From: Persephonella sp.
GTDB taxonomy: Bacteria > Aquificota > Aquificia > Aquificales > Hydrogenothermaceae
DNA: 60,680 nucleotides
NCBI RefSeq assembly: GCF_027023985.1
Contig: NZ_JALVTW010000038.1
Location: forward strand, 1 to 60,680
Direction of reading: 5' to 3'
Shown here: piece after piece, positions 18,204 through 20,420 of the stretch
How positions within the stretch are numbered: position 1 is the first letter of the stretch
Layout: each line of letters begins with the position of its first letter
Position numbers and translations under genes: made by a program
The notes under the pieces: generated by a model
Databases searched by the model: none
What the model was told of the DNA's origin: nothing
The model's input: only the letters and a program-made list of their open reading frames with translations

Positions 18204-18416
18204 ATGGGTAAAATTATAATTGAAACAAATGATAAAAAGGAAATAAAAATAAAGACATCTTTGAATTCACAGCAAGTGGAGAAACTAATAAAAGAACTGA
18301 AAAACAAAGAACAAGCAGAAAAAGCATTTAAAAAGCTAAGAGGGATATTGAGAACAGAAAAATCAGCGGAAGAACTTGTTGGAGAATTATATGAAGAAAT
18401 ATATGGTAGACAGTAA
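18204..18416 (+). CDS. Small antitoxin of a VapBC-type pair
   Basis: A 70-residue charged protein (GKIIIETNDKKEIKIKTSLN...) with an N-terminal beta hairpin-like segment and a long Lys/Glu helix, ending ELYEEIYGRQ. It overlaps the start of a complete PIN-domain gene by 26 bases, the typical arrangement for an antitoxin and its toxin. DNA-binding fold not recognisable with certainty. Confidence 0.65.
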   Translation: MGKIIIETNDKKEIKIKTSLNSQQVEKLIKELKNKEQAEKAFKKLRGILRTEKSAEELVGELYEEIYGRQ

Positions 18417-18855
18417 TATTCTCATTGAATATTTTAAGGACATACCTGAAGCTGTAAAAATAATAGAAACAATACGGGAAAAAAATACAAATGAATATTA
18501 CATAACAATAGATACTTTAGAAGAGATTTTATATATTCTTGTAAGACACTTGTCAGGAAAGTCCTATTGGGAACTCAAAAACAATCCTGAAATAGCAAAA
18601 AAATACTATAAAACAATAATTCCTTTAATAGAAACAATAATAAAGTCATCATTTGAAATTTTACCCACTACACAGAAAACCTATGAGACATTTATGAAAG
18701 TATGTAAAAAGTATGGGCTACTTCCTAAAGATGCTCTTTTGTTAACACTATGTATTGATAACAAAATTAACAATATCATAACTTTTGATACTGATTTCAA
18801 AAATTTAGATTTAAAGAAAATTAAAATTATATCTTCTGCAGAAGATATAAAGTAA
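18391..18855 (+). CDS. PIN-domain ribonuclease toxin (VapC-like)
   Basis: A 154-residue PIN protein. The start at ATG 18391 has GGAG seven bases upstream; an earlier TTG at 18376 would add five residues. The first acidic motif is YMVDSNILIEYFKD, the second acidic residue lies in DTLEEILYI, the third in LPKDALLLTLC and the last in IITFDTDFKNLDL, so all four catalytic acids appear present. Unlike the truncated copy at 3937-4128 this toxin looks intact. It sits between queD and a carbonic-anhydrase operon as a compact insertion. Confidence 0.85.
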   Translation: MKKYMVDSNILIEYFKDIPEAVKIIETIREKNTNEYYITIDTLEEILYILVRHLSGKSYWELKNNPEIAKKYYKTIIPLIETIIKSSFEILPTTQKTYETFMKVCKKYGLLPKDALLLTLCIDNKINNIITFDTDFKNLDLKKIKIISSAEDIK

Positions 18856-19524: not shown

Positions 19525-19830
19525 ATGACAAAAGCTGATATAGTCAACTGGATAATAGAGAATAAAAATGTCAGCTTGCCAAAAAAAGATATTGCAGATG
19601 TTGTCAATAGAGTTTTTGAGCTGATAGCAGACGAAATAGTTAACGGTGAGGATGAACATAAAATACAAATATCAGGATTTGGAACGTTTGTTGTTAAAAA
19701 AAGAGCACCTAAAATAGGCAGGAATCCTAAAACAAAAGAAGAAAAGTTGATACCTGAAAGACTTGGTGTATCATTTAAAATGGGTAAAAAACTTCAAAAG
19801 GCTTTAAATGGAGAAAAAGTCGGAGCGTAG
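19525..19830 (+). CDS. HU/IHF-family DNA-binding protein
   Basis: A 101-residue nucleoid protein: helical N-terminus (TKADIVNWIIENKNVSLPKKD), FELIADEIVNGE, then the beta-arm core KIQISGFGTFVVKKRAPKIGRNPKTKEE and an FKMGKKLQKALNG end. The GRNPKT segment is the DNA-bending arm tip of HU and IHF. Its last three codons and stop (GTC GGA GCG TAG) run into the first 10 bases of tRNA-Pro, so the mRNA 3' end and tRNA 5' end compete. A ribosome site AGAGGTTAGAA precedes the ATG. Confidence 0.93.
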   Translation: MTKADIVNWIIENKNVSLPKKDIADVVNRVFELIADEIVNGEDEHKIQISGFGTFVVKKRAPKIGRNPKTKEEKLIPERLGVSFKMGKKLQKALNGEKVGA

Positions 19831-19896
19831 CTCAGGCGGTAGAGCACTGGCATGGGGGGCCAGAGGTCGGCGGTTCGAGTCCGCTCGCTCCGACCA
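19821..19896 (+). tRNA. tRNA-Pro (anticodon GGG)
   Basis: Acceptor stem CGGAGCG/CGCTCCG, D arm, anticodon stem CTGGC/GCCAG with loop ATGGGGG, T arm GGCGGTTCGAGTCCGCT-like, discriminator A and an encoded CCA. The anticodon GGG reads CCC/CCU. The 5' end overlaps the HU gene by 10 bases, so the tRNA is probably cut from the HU transcript. Confidence 0.95.
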
Positions 19897-19938
19897 TTTA
19901 TAGAATTTCTAAATATCAGATATAAAAAATTATGAATA

Positions 19939-20398
19939 AGGGTTTAAAATGGGAGTGCTGGCAGGTTGGAAACCCTGCTTCCGCTTAACTGCCAGCAACA
20001 GACCCGCCACGGGCAGGGAAACGGGTGGGCGTCCAAAGATTTAAACTTACTAAATAATTGCTATTGTCTTAACTGAAACCCGGGGCAATGGGAGCCCCGC
20101 GGCCGGTTAAGACAATTAGGAAGCTTGTAACTGATATCTAAAGATACAGCCACATTAGGACGATTAGCAACGCCCCAATGTAAAGAATACACCATTTCAA
20201 ATCCCTGTTTAAGGCTGGATAGTAATTGTTTTACCCAGAAACCGTTTCTCTTCAGATGGGAAAGTGATTTTGGAGTTTTTAAAATAAAAAAACTTTATCG
20301 TCTTCTTCCGATTTAAACAGTTTTTTGAATTAGGTGAACTCAAAGTAAAGAAAAACTGAGTTTTCAACCGATAAGAGCTAAAAATTATAAAACGAAAT
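19939..20398 (+). ncRNA. Candidate large structured non-coding RNA (unclassified)
   Basis: No credible gene occurs between tRNA-Pro and the Rad52-like gene, yet the DNA is rich in nested inverted repeats and is more GC-rich than its surroundings. GTTTAAA near 19942 pairs with TTTAAAC near 20040. Inside is GCTGGCAG/CTGCCAGC (8 bp) and CCCGCC/GGTGGG around 20000-20030. A long hairpin at 20063-20116 pairs ATTGTCTTAACTG with CGGTTAAGACAAT (13 bp, one G-T) and is capped by CGGGGC-AATGGGA-GCCCCG. CTGTTTAA (20205) can pair with TTAAACAG (20313). A terminator hairpin closes the region. I checked by eye for RNase P, tmRNA, SRP, cobalamin and hammerhead signatures and found none. Strand is uncertain. 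Confidence 0.5.
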
Positions 20399-20416
20399 CA
20401 GGGGCTAAAGCCCCTG
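20399..20416. terminator. Hairpin terminator between the structured region and the Rad52-like gene
   Basis: CAGGGGC-TAAA-GCCCCTG is a perfect 7-base stem. On the minus strand it is followed by ATTTCGTTTT and lies 4 bases past the Rad52-like stop, so it probably ends that transcript; it may also end transcription coming from tRNA-Pro. Confidence 0.7.
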
Positions 20417-20420
20417 CAAC

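Follow-up and report, generated by a model that had tools for sequence, protein, structure and literature searches.

Structured RNAs encoded by phages and plasmids include large ones such as GOLLD and ROOL (PMC12286853), and the Racrs are small non-coding RNAs of phages and plasmids that mimic CRISPR repeats (PMC10651486). Short palindromic mobile sequences, sometimes located inside genes, have also been described, i.e., REP (PMC3733652), REPIN (PMC3116915) and RPE sequences and the enterobacterial RU elements (PMC2759123), and the tmRNA of Hydrogenobaculum contains an unexplained 78-nt hairpin insertion (PMC4227106).

Here we describe an interval between a tRNA-Pro gene and a Rad52-like gene in a 60,680-nt stretch of Persephonella sp. 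DNA (contig NZ_JALVTW010000038.1; hereafter the window), and in particular an element within it, block A. Like the GOLLD/ROOL-type RNAs, block A is a predicted structured non-coding RNA tied to phages and mobile elements, but it is only about 88 nt long, is predicted to form a three-way junction in which two loops may kiss, and has no match in Rfam. Like the Racrs it is small and borne by phages and plasmids, and some copies adjoin CRISPR loci; mimicry of CRISPR repeats, however, was not detected when block A and the hairpins B and D described below were compared with two local repeats (local alignment p 0.12 to 0.99). It resembles REP, REPIN, RPE and RU in being a short folded mobile sequence that is sometimes found within a gene, but differs from them in its low copy number (0-2 per genome, and thus not the high copy number of REP/REPIN), its larger conserved fold, its promoter-like 5′ flank, and in having no associated transposase at the loci examined. 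We class block A as an RNA family not yet catalogued, within the known general class of mobile-element small RNAs, and the hairpin insertion in the Hydrogenobaculum tmRNA could be of a similar mobile kind.

A composite insertion between tRNA-Pro and a resident gene

In five genomes of the same genus (G001, G004, G009, G010 and G011), the Rad52-like gene comes immediately after tRNA-Pro, with lpxB next, and compared with these genomes the window contains ~520 bp of extra DNA (Table 1). An eroded version of this insert is present at the same site in G006. Since G005 and G013 carry a different insert behind tRNA-Pro (L069 and L071; ~560 bp, at the same site as that of the window and with a possible short gene), we regard this site as an insertion hot spot. 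A duplicated att site at tRNA-Pro was considered and rejected, as no repeat of at least 9 nt was found. An HU-like gene and tRNA-Pro are kept together across the family, and the Rad52-like gene (Pfam Rad52_Rad22) lies between tRNA-Pro and lpxB in several genomes of the genus. This synteny identifies the Rad52-like gene as a chromosomal resident that carries no weight for a phage or mobile origin. The preliminary description of this locus had suggested a mobile origin on the basis of this neighbor; the origin itself stands, on the evidence of the copies that we found elsewhere on phage and plasmid DNA, and the argument from the neighbor does not.

Table 1. Features of the interval (positions in the window) and promoter-like sites preceding copies of block A and hairpin D
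Feature	Position or sequence	Strand	Remarks
tRNA-Pro (GGG)	19821-19896	+	left border of the insertion; resident in the family
Inserted block, tRNA-Pro to Rad52-like gene	19897-20420	not assigned	
Block A, full-length copy	19949-20036	+	structured RNA element of ~88 nt
P1 of block A	TGG 19950-19952 with CCA 20033-20035	+	weak support (4 pairs, 75% of cells paired)
P2 of block A	19956-19964 with 19989-19997	+	compensatory changes in 7 of 10 counted pairs
P2b of block A	GGAA 19968-19971 with TTCC 19979-19982	+	GGAG/CTCC elsewhere
P3 of block A	CCCGCC 20003-20008 with GGTGGG 20024-20029	+	compensatory changes in 3 of 6 pairs
Possible kissing loops of block A	CCCTGC 19973-19978 with GCAGGG 20013-20018	+	
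Block B hairpin	20065-20114 (stem to about 20061-20118)	+	another small RNA-like element
Block C	20114-20386	-	internally deleted IS605/TnpB-family element
IS left end in block C	20288-20382	-	matches the end in front of an intact tnpB (76% identity over 96 nt, E 2e-16)
tnpB C-terminal codon remnant in block C	20151-20177	-	WGVANRPNV vs WAVVNQPNV; E 0.05
Intrinsic-terminator-like hairpin with T-rich tail	20399-20416	-	immediately follows the Rad52-like gene's stop codon
Promoter-like site, A copy	TTGCCA-17-TATATT		p <0.001
Promoter-like site, A copy	TTTACA-18-TATATT		p 0.004
Promoter-like site, A copy	TTGATG-17-TATATT		p 0.007
Promoter-like site, A copy	TTGAAA-16-CATAAT		p 0.02
Promoter-like site, hairpin D	TTTTCA-17-TATATT		p 0.003

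Our analysis confirmed that the open reading frames in the interval are short and that no credible protein gene is present, and all of the stems and complementary pairs named previously were found in the sequence. A search with Rfam 15 at gathering and permissive thresholds, which covered tmRNA, RNase P, SRP, 6S, riboswitches, ribozymes, HEARO and GOLLD/ROOL with curated covariance-model cut-offs, matched only tRNAs and CRISPR repeats, i.e., no other existing family.

The interval had been read as one ncRNA of 300-450 nt, and in keeping with this the whole interval folds more strongly than its shuffles (z -5.15 on the plus strand and -5.94 on the minus strand). When the blocks are folded apart, block B gives z -6.3, block C -2.5 and block A -0.4; the excess folding comes mainly from block B, and block A is thermodynamically ordinary. 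BLAST cuts the interval into parts found separately elsewhere, and these are three unrelated pieces: A (~88 nt), B (50-60 nt) and C, an IS605/TnpB remnant on the other strand. As the three are distributed separately, we reject the reading of the whole 450 nt as one large RNA, which is now barely credible. The long-range pairs proposed to unite the locus do not do so, as GTTTAAA/TTTAAAC (19942-19948/20040-20046) does no more than bracket block A, and both halves of CTGTTTAA/TTAAACAG are within block C. Likewise, the hairpin assigned to the large RNA as its terminator follows the Rad52-like gene immediately, on the minus strand, and is therefore probably the terminator of that gene. The idea of an undescribed structured RNA within the interval is borne out for block A, and probably for block B, which have homologues with compensatory changes and no Rfam match. 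A striking gene-free hairpin locus can thus be a patchwork of relics instead of one large ncRNA.

Elsewhere in the window (18204-18855), a small gene and, after it, a gene that looks like PIN/VapC lie between genes resembling those for 6-pyruvoyl-tetrahydropterin synthase and carbonic anhydrase; judged by eye, this gene pair looks like a toxin-antitoxin pair.

Block C is a deletion derivative of an IS605/TnpB element

The right part of block C matches the left end of an IS element with an intact tnpB, the product of which contains OrfB_IS605 and Cas12f1-like_TNB domains, and the left part of block C corresponds to the C-terminus of TnpB. The apparent match to the tail of tnpB is weak alone, and is backed by a paralogue of block C in the same genome (G000:C16:19452-19732; 67% identical) that has the same plan. 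Block C therefore combines an end and a tnpB remnant that are homologous to an intact element, as in a deletion derivative of the IS605/TnpB family. Its left end, tnpB tail and paralogue are those of the internally deleted TnpB elements of IS605/IS607 type; the copy in the window differs from these in that its right-end hairpin is disrupted.

Conservation of the block A fold

Pattern and covariance-model searches of 136 Aquificota genomes identified seven full copies of block A in six genomes, all of them Hydrogenothermaceae. Two copies, in G000:C2 (L107) and G013:C16 (L108), are identical 87-mers in different surroundings and were counted once, leaving six distinct sequences. In these six, 12 of 30 pairs show compensatory changes, a result obtained in 0 of 500 shuffles and compared with 2-4 in slid controls; with four copies, 7 of 28 pairs had changed on both sides. 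RNAalifold, run unguided, recovered P2 (which contains GCTGGCAG/CTGCCAGC, 19957-19964/19989-19996), P2b and P3 with 12 compensated pairs. Block A thus has the best covariation support of the blocks despite its ordinary fold energy; compensatory changes beyond chance, the generic mark of a structured RNA, are found for block A and, modestly, for block B. The complementarity of CCCTGC and GCAGGG over six bases is present and invariant in all copies, and since pairs that never vary give covariation nothing to report, the kissing loop stays a proposal.

Weak matches of the model in G006, G013, G002 and G075 were discarded as chance, being coding-like sequence without the fold. Searches of public phage and plasmid sequences gave no credible match, and in pattern scans of viral contigs the one match examined did not have such a fold.

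Copies of block A on phage, plasmid and CRISPR loci

The copy in G000:C2, a phage contig from the same assembly as the window, lies antisense within the gene for a 1448-aa phage protein, directly after a PBECR2 nuclease-like domain. The frame of this gene is open throughout, so that a coding or DNA-level role is possible there. The gene (L107:8600-12946) is part of a virion region, and its neighbors include one for an SU10-type major capsid protein. In a homologue of the 1448-aa protein encoded by G034:C155, another domain occupies that position, which suggests domain swapping and means that the homologue could not be used as an empty site to give exact boundaries. The G034:C155 contig (L060/L125) is phage-like and also contains a full IS605-type TnpB gene, which adjoins a relative of the same phage.

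Two further copies are on replicon-like contigs. The G013:C16 copy is ~15 bp from an iteron-like repeat array, on a contig with a phage-type primase-helicase, and the G034:C292 copy (L109) is near repB on a Rep_3 plasmid contig with iterons, and is degenerate, with P2 broken. These two locations are what would be expected if block A were a single-strand DNA origin of plasmids and phages, i.e., a hairpin for entry of the primosome or RNA polymerase, with the chromosomal copies being relics of integrated replicons; we consider this very unlikely, as the phage copy is inside the gene of a virion protein and the promoter geometry described below suits an RNA gene better.

The remaining copies outside the window are associated with CRISPR loci: two are at array ends, with distances to the CRISPR repeats of about 110 nt in G007 and about 50 nt in G015, and in G008 the copy precedes, by 78 nt, a Cas6-like gene in a type I-B locus. 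The association may reflect no more than tolerance of insertions in the non-coding DNA that flanks CRISPR loci. A candidate degenerate CRISPR repeat beside the window copy was not significant (p 0.11). The genes adjoining block A differ from copy to copy, i.e., there is no conserved downstream gene class of the kind that marks a riboswitch.

Blocks B and D

Block B corresponds to the 13-bp stem with a GC cap at about 20061-20118. It recurs at the end of a CRISPR array in G034:C177, and is present twice behind block A on the plasmid contig G034:C292, where the gap between A and B is 29 nt, compared with 28 nt in the window. Covariation in block B is modest, with its covariation score reached by 8 of 500 shuffles and its paired changes by 76 of 500; block B is probably, like block A, an undescribed structured RNA element. 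Hairpin D occurs as the same 66-mer on G013:C16 (L108:231-296) and G034:C292 (L109:909-974). It is followed by TTTT, and it looks like another small-RNA gene. Hairpin D is unrelated to block A. The two have a common 5′ flank, with TTTTCAGGTTT...CTTATATTATTA preceding A in the phage and D in G013.

Promoter-like sites and strand

A position-specific scan for sigma-70-like promoters upstream of the A and D folds identified a predicted promoter ending 4-5 nt before the fold in four copies of block A (p ≤0.02 in each; Table 1) and one before hairpin D. A separate consensus scan independently found three of these four A sites as well as that of D, with the total of promoter-like sites in L108 being near chance expectation. 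The scores of the G007 and plasmid copies were not significant (p 0.14 and 0.13), and no promoter-like site was found by the position-specific scan for the window copy, the best score of which had p 0.94. No intrinsic terminator was recognized at the 3′ end of block A in the copies scanned. Among wobble cells in block A, G.T outnumbers A.C by 5:1, which favors the plus strand, though weakly alone (p 0.11), and block B, with four G.T positions and zero A.C, also favors the plus strand. Together, the promoter-like sites and the wobble bias suggest a small-RNA gene on the plus strand, with the window copy being a relic or transcribed by read-through.

The opposite strand is the one required if block A were the 3′-end guide-RNA scaffold (reRNA or omega RNA) of a lost TnpB-type transposon. 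Minus-strand frames of block A are open in most copies, a real TnpB remnant, block C, adjoins the window copy, and block A presumably resembles TnpB tails. Set against this, no examined A locus adjoins tnpB, no match to block A was found at a tnpB 3′ end in the 136 genomes, the tail peptides of block A match no TnpB, and the promoter-like sites and G.T bias point to the plus strand, which together make a TnpB scaffold very unlikely. Peptide searches also gave no support to the idea that block A encodes a TnpB tail.

The main rival to a small-RNA gene is that A, B and D are transposable hairpins, small and non-autonomous like REP/REPIN, RPE or RU, whose movement as single-stranded DNA depends on a transposase. 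The fold would then have been selected for mobilization and not as RNA, and the TATATTATTA shared before the hairpins would be a target or end motif. Such mobility would account for the presence of one and the same 87-mer in unrelated contexts and for an insertion in the phage gene that leaves the frame open, a TATATTATTA-like 5′ flank is common to A and D copies, and G.T pairs are tolerated in single-stranded DNA also. However, genomes contain at most two copies, no transposase adjoins any copy examined, and the shared flank is in the -10 position, with a -35-like hexamer 16-18 nt away, in five cases. We judge DNA-level mobilization to be unlikely, but it carries appreciable weight.

A proposed small-RNA gene family of mobile elements

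The explanation that we favor, and consider probable with room left for others, is that the interval consists of relics of mobile elements inserted between tRNA-Pro and the resident Rad52-like gene, and that block A belongs to a family of small-RNA genes carried by Hydrogenothermaceae phages and plasmids, of which the window contains a chromosomal relic. The conserved structure, the distribution, the insertion status and the IS origin of block C were established computationally; from these we infer transcription from the promoters, an RNA rather than single-stranded DNA nature for block A, and a role for the mobile element. In active-looking copies, the sigma-70-type promoter would start transcription at P1 or within a few bases of it, giving a predicted RNA of roughly 90-100 nt that starts near GGGAG/GGCGC and would fold as a three-way junction, the two hairpin loops of which may kiss (CCCTGC/GCAGGG). 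The window copy has kept its fold without a recognizable promoter, and is thus expected to be silent or transcribed only by read-through from tRNA-Pro. Block B would be another small hairpin RNA; on one plasmid it accompanies A, with order and spacing matching those in the window. The RNA of block A most likely would act as a compact binder of a host or element factor, serving the mobile element.

Small RNAs are, to our knowledge, hardly known in deep-branching thermophiles, and block A provides an RNA fold not catalogued before that is backed by covariation and has recognizable promoters on mobile elements of such organisms. As copies are located on a phage, on a plasmid and at CRISPR loci, block A can be put to the test as a candidate RNA of phage-host conflict. 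A more specific and rather unlikely proposal is that A, with B and D, forms a new class of phage- and plasmid-borne small RNAs acting on host immunity or a host RNase, e.g., by binding the CRISPR-Cas machinery; about half of the A and B insertion sites are at the ends of CRISPR arrays or before cas6, without mimicry of the repeat. In the Type I-B (Tneap) CRISPR-Cas locus of G008 (L036:5576-9907), the open frames of cas6 and cas8b look shortened or split, which may reflect decay or an assembly error.
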